IMG/VR virus record: IMGVR_UViG_3300007960_000200
Location: 1 to 23,216 of that record
Length of the DNA stretch: 23,216 nt
Direction: 5' to 3' (one strand)
From: a virus
The position numbers and the translations under genes are program-made. The notes beneath the pieces are model-generated. The model had not been told where the DNA came from, made no database searches, and was given only the letters and a program-made list of their open reading frames with translations. Positions 1 through 23,216 of the stretch are shown piece by piece (within the stretch, counting starts at the first letter, position 1; each line of letters begins with the position of its first letter).

Positions 1-110
1 AGATACACGGCACAGTTACACCAGAAGACATTGTTGCCATCGAGTACATCGACGGTACGGAACCTAGTCAATATGTAAAAGAGTGGATGAGGGCTAACCT
101 AAATGGTTAA
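1..110 (+). CDS. 3' end of a paralogue of the following ADP-ribosyltransferase-like protein (partial)
   Basis: The window opens inside a reading frame whose first full codon is at base 3 and which stops with TAA at 108-110. The 35 visible residues (beginning IHGTVTPEDI and ending MRANLNG) align with the C-terminus of the next gene, which reads IHDQVKPSDI at the same place. Shared features are the I-H pair, a V-x-P-x-D-I stretch and a closing W-x-R-x-N segment. The next gene starts at 103, inside this one, so the pair are coupled tandem paralogues. The catalytic part lies outside the window. Function is inferred only from the neighbour. Confidence 0.7.
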   Translation, partial: IHGTVTPEDIVAIEYIDGTEPSQYVKEWMRANLNG

Positions 111-963
111 AAGAAAATGTACAAAGGGCTATAGCTGTGGGGCTAGCTGTATTGCCACCAGTAAAGCTTGCAAAAAGGATTTTCCCTTAGGGGTTTCTAT
201 CTCCTTGGAAGAGAGAAGGGCATTAATCCCTGAAATAACCTACCCTCCCACTTTTAAGGATGGCTCCAAGAAGAGGGAAGCGCTTCTCGCAAGAGAAAGG
301 CAGGAACTGGTGGCTAAGTTTGGAGAAAGGGTTGTAAGGGCAGCGGAGGAGAGGGTAGAAAAAGTCCTAAGAGACGCTGAAGTGAGAGTTCAAGTCCCAG
401 ATGGAGCAACTCTAGAACAAATACTGAAGTCAAGGTTCAAAACCCAGTTTGAAACAAAAACCACCAGGGGTCTGTCTGGACTAGATAGAAGAACTGAAGT
501 GGAAGAAACGACATTGCAGATTGGGAGGGATGTACCTGCTGAGAATCGCCCAGTATATGGGGTTCTGGCATCTCCTACAGACCCAGTTACAACCTTGGGG
601 CAATACGGTTCTGTTCGTATCACCCTGAAGAACTCTGTCAAAGAGAGGACTTCTAATACACTAGATGACAGCTTCAGCCCTTCCGTTGGAATAGCTGCGA
701 ACACACCTCCCGCTGGGAGTTTTAACATTGCTAGCTATGTTACAGCTAAAGACCAGTTTGCTAAAGAGTATCTGTCCGAACTAGCCCGTGCCCGCAGTAC
801 AAGGGACATCACTTTGATGTTCAGTTCTGTATACTTAGAAGCTCAGATTCACGACCAGGTCAAACCGTCTGACATAGAGTCCATTACTCTCCCCTCTGCA
901 GAAGCCACTCCCTTCATCAGAGACTGGGCTAGAGAAAACAACGTCAAACTATCTGTAATCTAA
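103..963 (+). CDS. Cys-motif protein with ADP-ribosyltransferase-like (DUF3626-like) C-terminal domain
   Basis: A 286-residue protein. Residues 6-23 carry a four-cysteine motif (C-x3-G-x-SCG-x2-CI-x5-C) that may bind metal or act as a short attachment module. Residues 60-95 are charged and helical. The C-terminal half has RPVYGVL at 149-155, a YGSVRITLK strand at 168-176 and YLEAQIH at 244-250. From memory this order (R-P-x-YG, then E-A-Q-x-H) matches DUF3626 and phage-encoded ART-like domains, in which the Arg and Glu would be catalytic. The start overlaps the upstream paralogue by 8 bases. Position next to tail genes suggests a virion-associated or injected protein, but that is inference. 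The reading frame is certain, the ART call is moderate. Confidence 0.75.
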   Translation: MVKRKCTKGYSCGASCIATSKACKKDFPLGVSISLEERRALIPEITYPPTFKDGSKKREALLARERQELVAKFGERVVRAAEERVEKVLRDAEVRVQVPDGATLEQILKSRFKTQFETKTTRGLSGLDRRTEVEETTLQIGRDVPAENRPVYGVLASPTDPVTTLGQYGSVRITLKNSVKERTSNTLDDSFSPSVGIAANTPPAGSFNIASYVTAKDQFAKEYLSELARARSTRDITLMFSSVYLEAQIHDQVKPSDIESITLPSAEATPFIRDWARENNVKLSVI

Positions 964-977
964 AGGAATAACTTACT

Positions 978-1148
978 ATGAAAAGAATCGCTAAAGCAAT
1001 CTCTGGGAAAGACTACCTTGTAGTTGTTTCTGGAGAGGGTAATAACATGATGGTTTCCTCTGAATCCTACTTAAAGAAGAACCCTGGGCATAAAGGGACT
1101 AACATCGGTGCCTTCCTAGCCCATTGCCCATACTGGACGGATGTGTAG
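978..1148 (+). CDS. small protein of unknown function (56 aa)
   Basis: A 56-residue frame beginning MKRIAKAISG and ending AHCPYWTDV. An AAGGA-type ribosome site sits about 10 bases before the ATG, and the frame fills the gap between two Cys-motif genes exactly, ending two bases before the next ATG. It is basic at the N-terminus, with no signal peptide, membrane segment or motif I recognise. Placement and ribosome site support it. The function is unknown. Confidence 0.6.
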   Translation: MKRIAKAISGKDYLVVVSGEGNNMMVSSESYLKKNPGHKGTNIGAFLAHCPYWTDV

Positions 1149-1150
1149 AC

Positions 1151-1447
1151 ATGGCTCCCAAAAAGTGTAAGACTGGTAAATCCTGTGGTATGGGTTGTAT
1201 TTCCTCTACAAAAACTTGTAGAGTACAACTATCCCCCCAGGTAAGTGAAGCCCTAGAGGAACTCCCTTATCGCCAAGATTCCGGAGGAGATGCGAGGGTG
1301 AGAGTTTATCAGGAGTTAGGGTTTGGTGGGATGATTGAAAAGGACCAATGGGCTATAAAACTGGATGGTCTCCTTGTTCCAGTAACAGAAGAGTTCTACA
1401 GGAAGCATATAGAGAAGAAGAAGAAATGGGACTATAAGGGAATGTAA
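1151..1447 (+). CDS. short Cys-motif protein (98 aa)
   Basis: The start is taken at ATG 1151, three codons before the motif, rather than at an upstream ATG at 1124 that would overlap the previous gene. Residues 5-23 repeat the four-cysteine signature seen in the gene at 103 (C-x3-G-x-SCG-x2-CI-x5-C). The rest (about 75 residues, ending in a Lys-rich EKKKKWDYKGM) shares nothing visible with the ART-like domain. So the Cys motif is modular and appears here without the enzyme-like domain. Its role is unknown. Location points to the structural module. Confidence 0.7.
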   Translation: MAPKKCKTGKSCGMGCISSTKTCRVQLSPQVSEALEELPYRQDSGGDARVRVYQELGFGGMIEKDQWAIKLDGLLVPVTEEFYRKHIEKKKKWDYKGM

Positions 1448-3494: not shown

Positions 3495-3947
3495 GTGTTT
3501 AAGAGAGCAGTTACCTTCGGCAGGTTCAACGTACCCCACCTAGGGCATCTAGCTCTCTTTAACACCCTGCTAGTAATGGGTCAAGAGGTCGTTGTGATGG
3601 TTTCCGAGGGTAAGGGTAACCTGCCCATTGAAGTGAGGTTACACTTGTTGCGCAAGCTCTGCCCTGACCCTAGGGTTCAGTTTTTGCCCTGTAAAACTCC
3701 CTTCAGGAACAGTTTTATAGACGAAGAGACCGTGGTTTGCCTGGGTCAAGACCAAGAGAACCTAGGTCGAGCCTTAAGGAAGTTCTTCAAATGCGACACT
3801 TTTCTCTTGAGGAGGGAAGAATCTGACCCTAGCAGCAGTCGCTGCCGATTGGCTATAGCCAATCAGGACTGGTCGGAACTTGTGACCTTAATCCCACCTT
3901 CATTAATTGAGGATACCCTGTGTCTAACTGGAAAACACGGTTCATGA
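3495..3947 (+). CDS. HxGH nucleotidyltransferase, NMN adenylyltransferase-like
   Basis: A 150-residue protein with a GTG start placed 6 bases after AAGGAG. The N-terminus reads TFGRFNVPHLGHLALF with the HxGH nucleotide-binding motif at 15-18, after a GRF as in NadM/NadR-type adenylyltransferases. Near the C-terminus, SSSRCRLAIANQDW (113-126) corresponds to the S-x-[TS]-x2-R motif that contacts ATP phosphates. The family joins NMN or a similar substrate to AMP. If it makes NAD, it could refill NAD pools during infection, including pools drained by host NAD-consuming defences. No NAMPT-like partner is visible here. It could also be a pantetheine- or glycerol-phosphate-type transferase; the GRF-x3-HLGH form favours NMNAT. 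Confidence 0.78.
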   Translation: MFKRAVTFGRFNVPHLGHLALFNTLLVMGQEVVVMVSEGKGNLPIEVRLHLLRKLCPDPRVQFLPCKTPFRNSFIDEETVVCLGQDQENLGRALRKFFKCDTFLLRREESDPSSSRCRLAIANQDWSELVTLIPPSLIEDTLCLTGKHGS

Positions 3948-9477: not shown

Positions 9478-10198
9478 ACAGTTGGAGACGTTGTTAAACA
9501 ACGATGAAAAACGGTTTGAAGCTCTCTTGAAGGAGTTTAGAGGGGAACTACAACTCCTAGACTCCCTTGAGGAATCTGTGAGAAAGGAAGTCGGCAAGAC
9601 CCGAACCAAGCTCAAATTACTCATAGACAGGATGGAGAGAGCCACCGACTACAGCCAACGCCACTTTGCCACACTGAGGCAAAGGAACAAAGTGTGGAGG
9701 AACCGAGTGGCTCTACCTGCTTCACAGGTGGAAGAAGAAGAACCAGCTTTCATCACCATTAACTCTATACTGAAGCTCGTAATGAGTGTGTCTCTTCGAG
9801 ACACTGTAAGGGCTTCAGACTTTGAAGCCCAAAGCTTCAGCTTCCTGTTGCCCTCTGTGCTCAAAAGAACCCTCCTCGGTGAGAGCCAAGGTTATATCCT
9901 TAAGAGGCAGCCCAACCTAGAACCCATACAAGAAGAAGGAGCAGAACTGCTAAGGAGTCTAAGAGAAACCTTCCAGGGTTCCCTCTACTCCTCCCCAGAA
10001 ATATGGTCAGAATCTCTACCCCTAGTCCGGGGATGGTGGACTGATTCCGCATTACCCAGAATTTTCGGGGGGAAAGACCCTGACTGGGAAGGTGATGAGT
10101 GTTATTCCCGGGAATACATGGTACAATGGGTCAACAACCCTGAGTCAGACCCCATCTATACAGATTGCCTGGAGGTTATTAGATGCAGCAAGGTTTAG
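9461..10198 (+). CDS. coiled-coil protein of unknown function (245 aa)
   Basis: Starts after a GGAGAGGAG ribosome site inside the previous gene. Residues 1-75 are strongly heptad-like (LETLLNNDEKRFEALLKEF, LEESVRKEVGKTRTKLKLLIDRM) and should form a coiled coil. The rest contains hydrophobic helices (FSFLLPSVLKRTLL) and a Trp-rich end (VRGWWTDSALPRIFGG). No enzyme motif. Directly upstream of, and overlapping by 16 bases, the polymerase N-half, so it is a candidate polymerase accessory factor on position alone. Confidence 0.65.
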   Translation: MSSWDEQLETLLNNDEKRFEALLKEFRGELQLLDSLEESVRKEVGKTRTKLKLLIDRMERATDYSQRHFATLRQRNKVWRNRVALPASQVEEEEPAFITINSILKLVMSVSLRDTVRASDFEAQSFSFLLPSVLKRTLLGESQGYILKRQPNLEPIQEEGAELLRSLRETFQGSLYSSPEIWSESLPLVRGWWTDSALPRIFGGKDPDWEGDECYSREYMVQWVNNPESDPIYTDCLEVIRCSKV

Positions 10199-12282
10199 GT
10201 TACGAGATGATTCCTGAAAAGGTGAGGGTTAAGTTGTTTGGTGGCCCACTACGGAACGTCTCCCCAGCCACTGTAGCCCATTGCCAGTCCTTGCTGGAGG
10301 AGAAAGGTTTTCCCTTGCCCCCTGCTCCGACAGGGTTAACGTTTCCCGAATGGGTCTTAGATGAACTCCCAGACCTCGAAGGGAACACCATTCAAGAACA
10401 CTTTAACAACATCGCCCTGGAACAACTGGGGGACATCCCTGACAGAGCCCAACAGTTCGTAGAATGCACATTGCCCCCTGTACCTCCCGTGGAGAATCTA
10501 CGGCTCGTCCCAGGATGGACTCGTTACGCTAAGGATGGAGGGATTACCTCTGTACCCCACCCACTAGAAAAGGTGTTCACCTTCGACACCGAAACCTTCG
10601 TCAATGGGGGTTCCTACCCTATCATCGGCACCGCTGTTAGCCCAGAAGCCTGTTACATCTGGCTCTCCCCTGAGTTCCTTCAGGGGCAAGGGGCACCCAA
10701 AGATATGGTTCCTGTGGGCACCGGGAACCTTGCCATAGGACACTTTGTATCCTACGACAGAGTCCGCACCAAAGAAGCTTACACCTTAGAAACAGGGTTG
10801 GAGAATTATTGGCTGGACACCTTGTCTATGCACATCGCCCATAGTGGTTTAGCCTCCGGACAACGCTGGCTGTACGTCCTTTCCAACAAAGACCCAGAGT
10901 TACTGACAAAGGAAGAAAGGAACCAGATGAAATATCGCCCCCAGTGGCTAGAAGCTGGTTCTACTAACAGCTTGGTGGAGGTGTACAACTTTCATGTCTA
11001 TGAAACCAAGAAGTGGAATGGGGATAAGGGTGCCAAACCTATGGTTCCTGCGGATAAACTAATCCGTGACATCTTTGTCAAAGCTAAGACCCTGGCAGAA
11101 ATGCAACCCCTGTTGGTAGACTTGATAATGTACGCTATCAAGGACGCTTGGTTAACCGCAGAGCTTTTCCAATTCCTCTACCCTCGGTACAGGGACTCCA
11201 CTCCTAGCCCAGTGGCGCTCATGGGACACTTTTACCTAGGTGGCTCTAGGGTTCCCTTGACCCCCAACTGGGAAGAGTGGAAACAGGACTGTGAAACTGA
11301 ATACCAAGACCGCCTTCAACAGGTGACGGTTATCTGCCGTGGGCTGTTGATGGAAGAGTATCTTGAGTGGCTAGAATGTTACAACAAAGACACCGAGGGG
11401 ATGACTAAAGCAGAGAAGAAGAAGCTTACCCACTTCCCCCATATTAGCCAATGGGCGAAGAGTGACCCCTGGCGCAAGCAGAGTGACTGGAAGCCAAAGA
11501 TAATTGGGAACTCTAAGAAATTTCCAGAATGGAAAGGGAAAGTCCTTCCGAACTGGTGTGCCACCTTAATCATGGATGAATATTCAGACATTGGTGTTAA
11601 GACTAAAGCTGCTCACTTGCTCCTGAAGCTTAAGTGGATGGGAGAACCCTTGCGTCTTATAGATGGCAAGGGCTGGTGCTTCGGTGCCGATGAGGATAAA
11701 GTACCACATCCTAAGAGACCCGGGGAAAATGTAGGGGGTCTCTTAGGCAAGGACTTTGTAAAGGCAGGGGAGGCGGGGATTCTCTCTTCCGACCTAGATG
11801 AAGCCAAAGTCGTCCTCGGTATCGCCAACGAGATTTCTTACTGGACTTCAGTCCGGGGTAGAGTTAGTGAGCGGTTTGCCATCGAAGTCAACAACCCGTG
11901 TGGCGAAGATGCCCTTGTTACCATACCTGTTATAACCCCGCATGGAACAACCACCAGGAGGGTGGTCGAACCTCTCTTTGCCACAATGTGCAGCACTAAG
12001 AGTTACAGGATTGGGACAGAGTTAAAGACCCGTATAGAAGCCCCAGATGGGTGGAAGATTGTTGGAGGAGACTTCGATTCCCAAGAAGTCAGAATCGCCG
12101 CAGCGTTTGCTGACTCCTGGGAGGGTGGTATAATCGGAGGGAGCCCCATCGGTTACCAACTACTGAGTGGTTCCAAGGAGGAGGGGACTGACCCTCACAC
12201 TAGCATCGCTAGAGAGGCTTTCCCACAAGAGTACCAGGGCATAGTGTTCACCAGAGAACAAGGGATTTGTGAAGAATGTTAA
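10183..12282 (+). CDS. family A DNA polymerase, gamma-like, N-terminal half (3'-5' exonuclease + palm motif A)
   Basis: A 699-residue protein with GGAGG about 7 bases before the ATG. Exonuclease motif I is FDTET (Asp135, Glu137), motif II GHFVSYDR (Asp192) and motif III YAIKDAW (Tyr317, Asp321). The intervening LDTLSMHIAHSGLASGQRWL closely follows human POLG, as do NWEEW, LGIANEISYW, TTRRVVEPLF and TELKTRIEAPDGWKIVGGD. Palm motif A is GGDFDSQE with catalytic Asp630. The protein then reads GTDPHTSIA, equivalent to the POLG stretch just before the O-helix, and stops about 20 residues later. Motifs B and C are absent here but occur in the gene at 22598. It should need that fragment to polymerise, and might work alone as an exonuclease. 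Confidence 0.92.
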   Translation: MQQGLGYEMIPEKVRVKLFGGPLRNVSPATVAHCQSLLEEKGFPLPPAPTGLTFPEWVLDELPDLEGNTIQEHFNNIALEQLGDIPDRAQQFVECTLPPVPPVENLRLVPGWTRYAKDGGITSVPHPLEKVFTFDTETFVNGGSYPIIGTAVSPEACYIWLSPEFLQGQGAPKDMVPVGTGNLAIGHFVSYDRVRTKEAYTLETGLENYWLDTLSMHIAHSGLASGQRWLYVLSNKDPELLTKEERNQMKYRPQWLEAGSTNSLVEVYNFHVYETKKWNGDKGAKPMVPADKLIRDIFVKAKTLAEMQPLLVDLIMYAIKDAWLTAELFQFLYPRYRDSTPSPVALMGHFYLGGSRVPLTPNWEEWKQDCETEYQDRLQQVTVICRGLLMEEYLEWLECYNKDTEGMTKAEKKKLTHFPHISQWAKSDPWRKQSDWKPKIIGNSKKFPEWKGKVLPNWCATLIMDEYSDIGVKTKAAHLLLKLKWMGEPLRLIDGKGWCFGADEDKVPHPKRPGENVGGLLGKDFVKAGEAGILSSDLDEAKVVLGIANEISYWTSVRGRVSERFAIEVNNPCGEDALVTIPVITPHGTTTRRVVEPLFATMCSTKSYRIGTELKTRIEAPDGWKIVGGDFDSQEVRIAAAFADSWEGGIIGGSPIGYQLLSGSKEEGTDPHTSIAREAFPQEYQGIVFTREQGICEEC

Positions 12283-20582: not shown

Positions 20583-20690
20583 ACAGCCGTGGATAAAAGA
20601 GTCTACACCTACAGGGAAGGGGTTATGCAACCAGCACCACATCTTCCCTGTAAGTTCCCCAGAACTCTTCATCCAAGGGTATAATGAAGT

Positions 20691-20764
<74 letters not shown>

Positions 20765-20935
20765 TCAACATAAGGAATAGACAACATGGTTTTCCGTATA
20801 TTCGTGCCGCAGTGGTTGCCTCCCCGTTCCGTCAAGGTTATTGCCCTCACATGAACCGGAAATACGTGGGGAAGCTGACTGTGACGCTACTCTAGCCACT
20901 GTACCAGACCGTTTCAAATTTCTTCCGTAGAAAGC
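20765..20935. other. 171-base gap with only short or degraded reading frames
   Basis: A 22-codon ORF (20786-20854, MVFRIFVPQWLPPRSVKVIA) follows AAGGAA and overlaps a 14-codon ORF by ATGA. A second frame over the same bases reads HGFPYIRAAVVASPFRQG and a third ends DATLATVPDRFKFLP. The mix suggests a decayed gene or a small RNA region. None is firm enough to call as a gene. Confidence 0.3.
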
Positions 20936-22215: not shown

Positions 22216-22604
22216 ATGAAAGCAACTCTATTAATCGGTGCCCCTGGAGCAGGAAAGTCCCGTTGGTGGTTTACCAATCATTACTGTTCCACCCGTATCC
22301 GCCTCCCCCTCCCCACTAACGGTAATTGGGCTGAGGTTAAAGGATGGCTCAACGGAGAGCTAAAGCAATACTCTGCGATAGGGCGGGAAATCGTTGTAGA
22401 AGGGACGTTCTGTTCCTCTGAATACCGTAAAAGCCTGGTTAAACTCTGCGTGCAGCAGGGTACACTGAGGTGGTGGGCATCGTCTTCCCTAAGACCTCCT
22501 CCTCTAAAGAATACGCTCTGGAACTTCAGGAAAGACTTCGCCTTTGCCCGCCTTCCCTTAACGAAGGGTTCGACAATCTTACTATCCAAGAAATCGCATG
22601 CTAA
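22216..22604 (+). pseudogene. kinase paralogue with a one-base frameshift
   Basis: MKATLLIGAPGAGKS is nearly identical to the start of the kinase at 21679, and the first 20 coding bases match exactly. The copy lacks the S-x-D-x3-R acceptor motif (a deletion of about 12 residues) and has VVEGTFCSSEYR where the other has VVIDNTNCKKVYR. At base 22461 one T is missing: GGTACAC here against GGTTACAC in the paralogue. Restoring it gives YTEVVGIVFPKTSSSKEY, then CPPSLNEGFDNLTIQEIAC, clearly homologous to the paralogue, with a stop at 22602-22604. Without it, translation runs on out of frame to 22641. Either a decaying duplicate or a sequencing error. Confidence 0.78.
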
Positions 22605-23216
22605 CGCCTGTTTCCAAAGAAAAGGAAGTTTACTTGGGTAAACTCAGAGGATGTGGGAAGATTATGAACTTCTCCGTCCTCTACGGCTCAGGGGTCAAGG
22701 GGTTAGCTACCTTCCTTCAGGGGGAATTCCCCCATCTCCCCTGGTCAAAATTGACCGAGATAGCCAAGTTGGCTATCAAGGCTAAGAAAGGGACTACTGA
22801 CAGAGAGGGAGTGTTCTCTGGTGGGACAGACTCCGGTGCCTTTAACATGATGGACAAGATTGCCATCCATTCCCCCACTCCCTCTCTCCCTACGCTGGGC
22901 ACAAAAATTACCACAGCCCTTCGCCCCTCTGTAGTGGGTAGAGACTTCCTGCCGGGAAGAAGGAACTGGGCTATTCAAGGGACTGGTGCGGAAATTCTTT
23001 CCATCTTCCTTGTAGCCGTCCATTGGTTGGCTAAGAAAAAAGGTATAACCACCTTGTTCATCATAAGCATCCATGATGAGATATGGTGGCTCTTCCGAGA
23101 GGGAGATACGGAGATGGGTGTTAAAATCCTTCAATTAGCCCACTTGTACACCTGGGGATTATTTAATGCCCAGCTAGGAATGCCTGACCTAGCCTTGAAC
23201 AATGCTTTCTTCTCCG
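22598..23216 (+). CDS. family A DNA polymerase, gamma-like, C-terminal half (motifs B and C), partial at window end
   Basis: Opens at ATG 22598, overlapping the restored stop of the kinase paralogue, and stays open to the window edge (206 codons). Motif B is RGCGKIMNFSVLYGSG (Arg17, Lys21, Phe25, Tyr29), matching the POLG O-helix, which has Tyr where this has Phe. GGTDSGAFNMMDKIAI, ALRPSVVGRDFLPGRRNWAIQGTGAE and motif C ISIHDEIWWL (His159, Asp160, Glu161) follow POLG in order. AQLGMPDLALNNAFFS resembles the POLG segment ending in VAFFS. It lacks motif A and the exonuclease, which are in the gene at 10183. The first 14 residues have no POLG counterpart. The two products should assemble into one polymerase. 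Confidence 0.9.
   Translation, partial: MLTPVSKEKEVYLGKLRGCGKIMNFSVLYGSGVKGLATFLQGEFPHLPWSKLTEIAKLAIKAKKGTTDREGVFSGGTDSGAFNMMDKIAIHSPTPSLPTLGTKITTALRPSVVGRDFLPGRRNWAIQGTGAEILSIFLVAVHWLAKKKGITTLFIISIHDEIWWLFREGDTEMGVKILQLAHLYTWGLFNAQLGMPDLALNNAFFS

Follow-up and report, generated by a model that had tools for sequence, protein, structure and literature searches.

The analyzed window, a 23,216-base virus record from IMG/VR (IMGVR_UViG_3300007960_000200), encodes at its left end a 286-residue protein, termed P0002, in which a short N-terminal motif with four cysteines precedes a domain resembling ADP-ribosyltransferases (ARTs). The same motif, hereafter the tag, recurs in a neighboring 98-residue protein. 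We found that the tag is a recurrent mobile module, standing before unrelated effector domains or behind portal and MuF domains. The ART adds one more member to a known kind of protein, and the tag is, as far as our searches reach, an undescribed marker. It is probable that the ART is carried in the virion and injected, the tag of about 25 residues marking it as cargo and attaching it inside the head, from which it would be ejected together with the DNA. In our best reading, the tag is a marker of virion-carried, injected effectors, mainly in cyanophages, and cyanobacteria are probably the host of the virus in the window.

Recurrence and partners of the cysteine tag

A preliminary description of this DNA had given the first spacing of the motif as C-x3-G, a form without a match in the window. 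The form counted here, C-x2-G-x-S-C-G-x2-C-I-x5-C, matched twice on the plus strand, at 118-171 and 1166-1219, corresponding to residues 6-23 of both P0002 and the 98-residue protein, and two matches were obtained in none of 100 shuffles. Scanning IMG/VR with the back-translated motif at the correct spacing, which gives lower bounds, returned at least 119 stretches, and the motif lay inside an open reading frame (ORF) of at least 90 residues in 107 of the 117 loci newly fetched among the matches listed. When one residue was added to the spacing (C-x3-G), 18 stretches were found, four of them in ORFs of that length, and one of these four (locus L013) is a plausible tag variant. The distribution of the motif is not random, and the observation behind the preliminary description is confirmed once its spacing is corrected.

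After removal of near-duplicates, of ORFs below 90 residues and of L090, L134 and L148, at least 86 distinct tagged proteins remained, including two from the window and eight from bacterial genome records, all eight named as cyanobacteria. The three discarded loci were low-complexity or chance matches, L148 coming from an Acidobacteria record. Four of the tagged proteins have two tags each. A relaxed motif occurred in 3 of 292 cyanobacterial genomes, one of the three being the centre genome, which had been chosen for its motif. In the family of a Glaciecola genome it occurred in 3 of 196 genomes, again counting the centre, and the reversed control gave none in either set. The tag is thus not a common host domain.

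Among the 79 tagged proteins with a complete 5' end, the tag lies within the first 60 residues in 46 and further in in 33. Basic residues precede its first cysteine: of 90 tags, 77 have K or R at position -2 and 63 at -1. Further along, 85 have T, S or A at +9, and 54 have K at +15. The median net charge of the tag region is +5.5 per 23 residues, compared with a mean of 0.51 in other segments of the same proteins, 1.3% of which reach +5.5. Seven positions are invariant in 66 selected tag sequences, in part because the search pattern demanded them. An AlphaFold2 model of the 98-residue protein, computed with the 66-tag alignment, reached block-mean predicted local distance difference test (pLDDT) values of 84-92 over residues 1-30 and predicts a tight hairpin with strands at 10-12 and 15-17 and a helix starting at residue 29. 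The modeled order is tag, helix, low-confidence linker and beta-hairpin plus helix. A sequence search in the PDB found no solved structure of the tag, and Foldseek listed no match for it under E 0.3; the best-ranked entry, an IscA chain with E 0.33, was taken as chance.

The sequences following the tag are diverse. Grouped by blastp at E 1e-3 on the post-tag segments only, 88 segments fell into 25 groups that blastp left unlinked, although such groups may hide distant homology; they include ARTs, kinases, a zeta toxin, GNAT and a C39 peptidase. Pfam was run on 35 of the tagged proteins and gave matches above the cut-off for 17. In eight of the 35, the tag is preceded by a portal or MuF domain: a Mu-type portal in L032, L039, L137 and L161, a lambda-type portal in L089, L101 and L135, and MuF in L179. 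InPase is also N-terminal to the tag in L039 and L154. The effector domains found above the cut-off behind or beside tags were ART (second protein of L039), APH-type kinase (L100, with weaker kinase matches in L098 and L126), zeta toxin (L105), GNAT (L154), C39 peptidase (L179), DnaJ (L140), LPD1 (L036 and L140) and lipase/esterase-like domains (L065 and L174), while L032 has a DUF3626-like domain just under the cut-off. L140 and L185 are multi-domain tagged proteins, and one Leptolyngbyaceae contig encodes three tagged proteins inside 5.4 kb, namely a portal, a relative of P0002 and a MuF-C39 protein.

We scanned 148 of 158 neighboring ORFs against PHROGs. They matched 170 PHROGs, the commonest 25 of which include, in raw counts without a control set of ORFs, several terminase families, portal, head maturation protease, minor head/DNA pilot, head-tail joining and major head proteins, as well as PhoH and homing endonucleases. 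The tagged genes had been described as lying near tail genes. This holds in the window, where a tail collar gene downstream of the 98-residue gene (1674-2912; Collar domain, E 4e-10) adjoins them and the contig ends on their left, whereas at other loci the neighbors prominently include terminase, portal and further head genes.

Neither a Pfam or PDB family for the tag nor a publication describing it was found, the literature search being largely without subscription papers. Its printed motif strings were absent from the literature searched, and the word 'cysteine' does not occur in PMC5512222 or PMC7824862. Alignments of phrog_33618 to L115 and L140 and of phrog_16619 to L115 span the tag, so that it is already contained, unnamed, in existing whole-protein profiles.

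Tagged genes in isolated cyanophages

In Planktothrix phage PaV-LD, all seven tag-profile matches lie between the portal and tape measure genes, and in Aphanizomenon phage CL131, all six lie between the major capsid and tape measure genes; the pattern has no opposite-strand match in either genome. The tag is confined to structural gene blocks in both phages. Among the tagged PaV-LD genes, one carries the annotation 'virion structural protein' and another 'minor head protein', while the product of a further one, ORF079R, matches ART. In CL131, gp048 (L181, 7706-13141; 1811 residues) contains four tags together with several lipase/esterase-like matches. The virions of this phage have been analyzed by liquid chromatography-tandem mass spectrometry, with 23 proteins reported (PMC6293099).

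Nodularia phage kac68v161 has two divergent tags, one of them in gp023, which also has an ART domain, and at E 0.001 the tag profile reaches only the tag outside gp023. Two reverse-strand matches to a short pattern in this genome, far from the block and one with an in-frame stop codon, were taken as chance. Four cysteines at similar spacing, all missed by the strict pattern, also occur in PaV-LD, CL131 and Nodularia phages. The ART-carrying phages Tierra and SP-15 gave no tag-profile match, and no tag was found in the isolate Mic1, for which a virion proteome exists, when it was examined for a tagged protein.

Synechococcus phage S-CBWM1 has five tag matches, in gp106, the RIO-like kinase gp113, the ChoK-like kinase gp161, the APH-like kinase gp162 and gp174, which is annotated 'virion structural protein' and adjoins the capsid gene. 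Its tagged genes lie near terminase and baseplate, tail sheath and capsid genes. For gp113 and gp161 (L250 and L245 in MG450654.1), the annotated starts at 70464 and 117887 fall downstream of the tag, and in-frame ATGs at 70398 and 117830, respectively, bring the tag into the kinases. APH, ChoK and Rio2 kinases are reported second-hand from S-CBWM1 virions (PMC10665884). By annotation, these virion-reported kinases are the three tagged kinases gp113, gp161 and gp162, the names having been matched over three stretches covering about 25 kb of the 139-kb record. A fourth kinase, the PknB-like gp173, has no tag match. It is not named among the S-CBWM1 virion kinases in the accessible text of the source, which is silent on whether it was sought (PMC10665884).

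In the record of another phage, S-CREM2, two products are marked as virion proteins, a CRISPR-associated endonuclease Cas9 and an APH-like kinase (gp12 and gp14; L246), both of which also appear in the virion table of PMC10665884.

The ART domain and the left end of the window

P0002 is encoded at 103-963 on the plus strand, as are the features described below up to the 98-residue gene. Its ART or DUF3626-like domain spans residues 77-265 (331-897), which match phrog_8314 with E 6e-10. In tblastn searches of isolated phages, P0002 retrieved DUF3626 proteins of Nodularia phages (4e-13), Bacillus SP-15, the 'capsid maturation protease and ADP-ribosyltransferase' of Mycobacterium phage Tierra (6e-5) and, weakly, the minor head protein of TP901-1 (4e-3). 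The Pfam cut-off for DUF3626 was passed by the relatives L003, L008, L187 and L199.

In a 43-sequence alignment, R149 (547-549) is kept in all sequences, S190 (670-672) in 39, with T in three and a gap in one, and E246 (838-840), part of Y-x-E-x-Q-[IV]-H, in 41, with R in one and a gap in one. R149 and E246 had already been named in the preliminary description. The three residues follow the order of the R-S-E pattern of ARTs and form a candidate active site, with R149 as the putative arginine binding nicotinamide adenine dinucleotide (NAD) and E246 as the putative catalytic glutamate. The AlphaFold2 model of P0002, built on the 43-row alignment, had a pLDDT of 75.3 and a predicted template modeling score of 0.71. 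Foldseek with this model found SopF (E 1.3e-7), and VIA-align 2 aligned 236 residues to SopF, covering model residues 35-286, with a Z score of 14.0 and a root-mean-square deviation of 4.7. Lower Z scores were obtained for Tpt1 (10.1), DarT (9.2-10.0) and OspC3 (9.1), a DarT chain superposing on model residues 83-286. In its predicted structure, P0002 has an ART fold, and together with the ordered R-S-E residues this places it in the ART superfamily, as had been suspected from the sequence. We predict NAD-dependent modification of a target as its activity.

A Pfam scan found no MuF domain in P0002, which sets it apart from MuF polymorphic toxins. Neither is P0002 polyvalent in the sense of at least two different effector domains per chain, as it consists of the tag and one ART domain. 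Nine untagged ART relatives, hand-picked from 37 untagged loci, were scanned with Pfam. In four of them, the chain also contains a head-protein domain that passes the cut-off: MuF in L189, L199 and L208, the last also with a portal domain, and minor capsid protein 2 in L219. A fifth, L194, has a sub-threshold MuF match, and a tenth protein, L185, combines a relaxed tag with a lambda-type portal. In L189 (715-3648), MuF, ADPrib_exo_Tox and DUF3626 stand in one chain, apparently giving two ARTs per head protein.

Immediately upstream of P0002 lies the remnant of an ART-like paralog, 35 residues and a stop at 3-110. The codons at 3-107 and the stop at 108-110 are all of this gene that the contig contains, as the contig start falls inside it, and the ATG of P0002 (103-105) overlaps its 3' end. 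Local alignment of the remnant with the C-terminus of P0002 scored 56, a value reached by none of 2000 shuffles (best 45). The tandem paralogy described earlier therefore stands for the shared C-terminal segment, while the rest of the upstream gene falls outside the contig. Between the two tagged genes, a 56-residue ORF at 978-1148 has neither a tag nor a family match in profile scans. The 98-residue gene at 1151-1447 bears the tag without the ART part, just as had been noted. No relatives of its product were confirmed in the viral_contigs search, and its non-tag part had none among 23,479 ORFs of the fetched loci.

A cytidylyltransferase-like gene of NMNAT type lies at 3495-3947, 2.5 kb downstream of the ART gene. 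NMNAT-like proteins are reported from cyanophage virions (PMC10665884), and with such a gene near the ART gene, NAD supply and NAD use may be linked.

Elsewhere in the window, this phage contig has a tRNA-Met (CAT) gene at 20690-20766 and a family A DNA polymerase of mitochondrial type in two same-strand pieces (10183-12282 and 22598-23215) about 10.3 kb apart. Pfam gave DNApol_Exo with E 1.5e-61 and, on the second piece, DNA_pol_A with E 2.4e-9. The first piece ends with TREQG and a short tail, and the second resumes with KIMNFSVLYG. An Rfam scan near the split polymerase found no intron; the split could reflect trans-splicing, a protein made as two chains or a rearrangement of the contig.

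Role of the tag and comparison with known systems

In the mechanism we propose, the ADP-ribosyltransferase would ride in the phage particle and enter the host cell together with the DNA. Its first 25 residues or so would be a tag in their own right, basic and with four cysteines, by which virion cargo is marked, and the 98-residue protein would be a second, small cargo with the same tag. The four cysteines may clamp a tiny beta-hairpin, by metal or disulfides, and the clamped tag would attach the cargo within the head, leading to packaging and then to ejection. Binding to packaged DNA seems the likeliest attachment. Phages with different portal families have the tag in common, which argues against docking to one head protein and for a shared partner, and the strong positive charge of the tag would make packaged DNA the best-fitting one. 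We infer injection, a host target and the mode of attachment, and sorting by the tag itself is putative. A sorting or attachment tag reused on several proteins had been suggested before. This interpretation is supported by the occurrence of the tag before unrelated effectors and after portal or MuF domains, by its restriction to structural blocks in PaV-LD and CL131 and by the second-hand report of tagged kinds of kinases in S-CBWM1 virions.

Several observations weigh against virion cargo as the role of the tag, or against parts of the argument for it. P0002 scores 18.9 bits against DUF3626 (PF12294), under the Pfam cut-off of 27, and so falls outside that family as Pfam defines it. In a separate nine-sequence alignment, SP-15 has H and Tierra has P in place of R149, so that not every member of the wider family keeps this arginine. 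The tag region of the P0002 model has a pLDDT below 50. The tally of neighboring genes lacks a control set, and the tagged genes of S-CBWM1 lie in three places with metabolic genes among their neighbors. Portal-fused proteins carry the tag as well, on which a pure packaging signal would be redundant because such proteins are already attached to the portal. Nor is the tag a general packaging requirement, since S-CREM2, with a virion kinase and virion Cas9, and S-CRM01, with a kinase reported in virions, have no tag match, and the NMNAT-like protein reported in S-CBWM1 virions (PMC10665884) is absent from the named products of the tag matches. Finally, a similar motif follows what by eye is an apparent signal peptide both in gp23 of Pseudoalteromonas phage C5a and in an SH3 protein from a genome of the Glaciecola genome's family, so that the module is not exclusive to virion cargo. 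In another signal-peptide-type protein of that family, the motif lies near the C-terminus. These proteins suggest an unrelated or ancestral use of the module.

Such proteins, with apparent signal peptides and the motif, come from two genomes of that family and from phage C5a (L242, 1429-1872; L243, 1303-1590; L182, 7114-7539), in two of them with the motif before an SH3 domain, and a similar stretch occurs in a 118-residue ORF of a cyanobacterial genome (L241).

The tag on portal fusions would be explained if it were a delimiter or processing site, at which a portal- or MuF-effector polyprotein is cut before the basic residues and the first cysteine and the tag becomes the N-terminus of each effector; free-standing effectors already begin at it. 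Consistent with cleavage, the tag begins beyond residue 60 in 33 of the 79 proteins with a complete 5' end, eight of the 35 scanned have it behind a portal or MuF domain, and K or R is frequent at -2 and -1. However, the other 46 proteins have no large part to remove, the residue before the first cysteine is N or Q in 22 of 90, and no protease partner has been identified, nor was one searched for. We consider processing unlikely.

It appears improbable to us that the tag acts on the host side or as a redox device after injection, for example as a metal or disulfide switch read by the thioredoxin system of cyanobacteria or in envelope crossing, with the packaging signals elsewhere. All eight tagged proteins of bacterial genome records are cyanobacterial, the isolates with tagged structural genes are cyanophages, and the sharing of the tag across portal families and its relatives in proteins that by appearance have signal peptides, and in which disulfides would therefore form, would suit such a device, but shared ancestry and recombination explain the cyanophage restriction equally well. 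A mere structural cap or linker, spread with late effector genes by recombination and having no sorting role, would be in keeping with the shortness of the tag, which AlphaFold2 models confidently only as a hairpin plus helix and for which no known fold was found. This seems to us quite improbable in view of the seven invariant positions, partly pattern-imposed as they are, the four cysteines that PaV-LD, CL131 and Nodularia phages keep at similar spacing outside the strict pattern, and the three S-CBWM1 tagged kinase kinds reported in virions (PMC10665884).

Injected phage proteins are usually hard to recognize from sequence. If the tag marks injected cargo, as we favor, it would provide a genome-readable list of effectors for cyanobacterial viruses, many of them now 'hypothetical proteins', and would suggest where in bloom-forming cyanobacteria to seek the proteins that are hit within minutes of the start of infection. 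A broader proposal, which we advance tentatively and with some doubt, is that the 18-residue tag is universal in cyanophages of unrelated head types and that any domain behind it is loaded and injected. In that case, the tag by itself would be enough to find in genomes a recombining effector set of ARTs, kinases, zeta toxins, acetyltransferases, proteases and hydrolases, and it could be used to direct foreign cargo into the virion.

In phage T4, the capsid-targeting sequence is an N-terminal signal common to unrelated internal proteins, from which the prohead protease cleaves it. T4 also packages the ADP-ribosyltransferase Alt in its head and injects it (PMC5512222, PMC9503650). A virion-carried, injected ART and an N-terminal signal on unrelated proteins are what we propose here from sequence. 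Unlike in T4, the signal would be a basic four-cysteine module with no known removal by a prohead protease, and the nearest folds of the ART are SopF, DarT and Tpt1. In MuF polymorphic toxins, variable effector domains including ART are attached to a head protein (PMC5576092). Some relatives of the ART domain in the window are likewise fused to MuF, whereas P0002, without a MuF match, is a free-standing effector with a tag instead. Phage polyvalent proteins are injected mixtures of ART, kinase, GNAT, peptidase and other domains (PMC5512222), and some tagged proteins resemble them in having LPD1, InPase or ART-PolyVal domains. In contrast, many effectors here are separate genes with one small tag in common, of which the accessible part of PMC5512222 makes no mention.

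Among profile families, DUF3626 and phrog_8314 are sequence relatives of the ART domain, P0002 itself remaining under the Pfam cut-off for the former. The phrog_33618 family, of unknown function, and phrog_16619, a minor head protein, contain the tag, but as long whole-protein families in which it is not separated. Also carried in virions are the kinases of the cyanophages S-CBWM1, S-CREM2 and S-CRM01 (PMC10665884), whose accessible description does not mention the motif. While S-CREM2 and S-CRM01 lack a tag match, kinases of three named kinds bear the tag in S-CBWM1.

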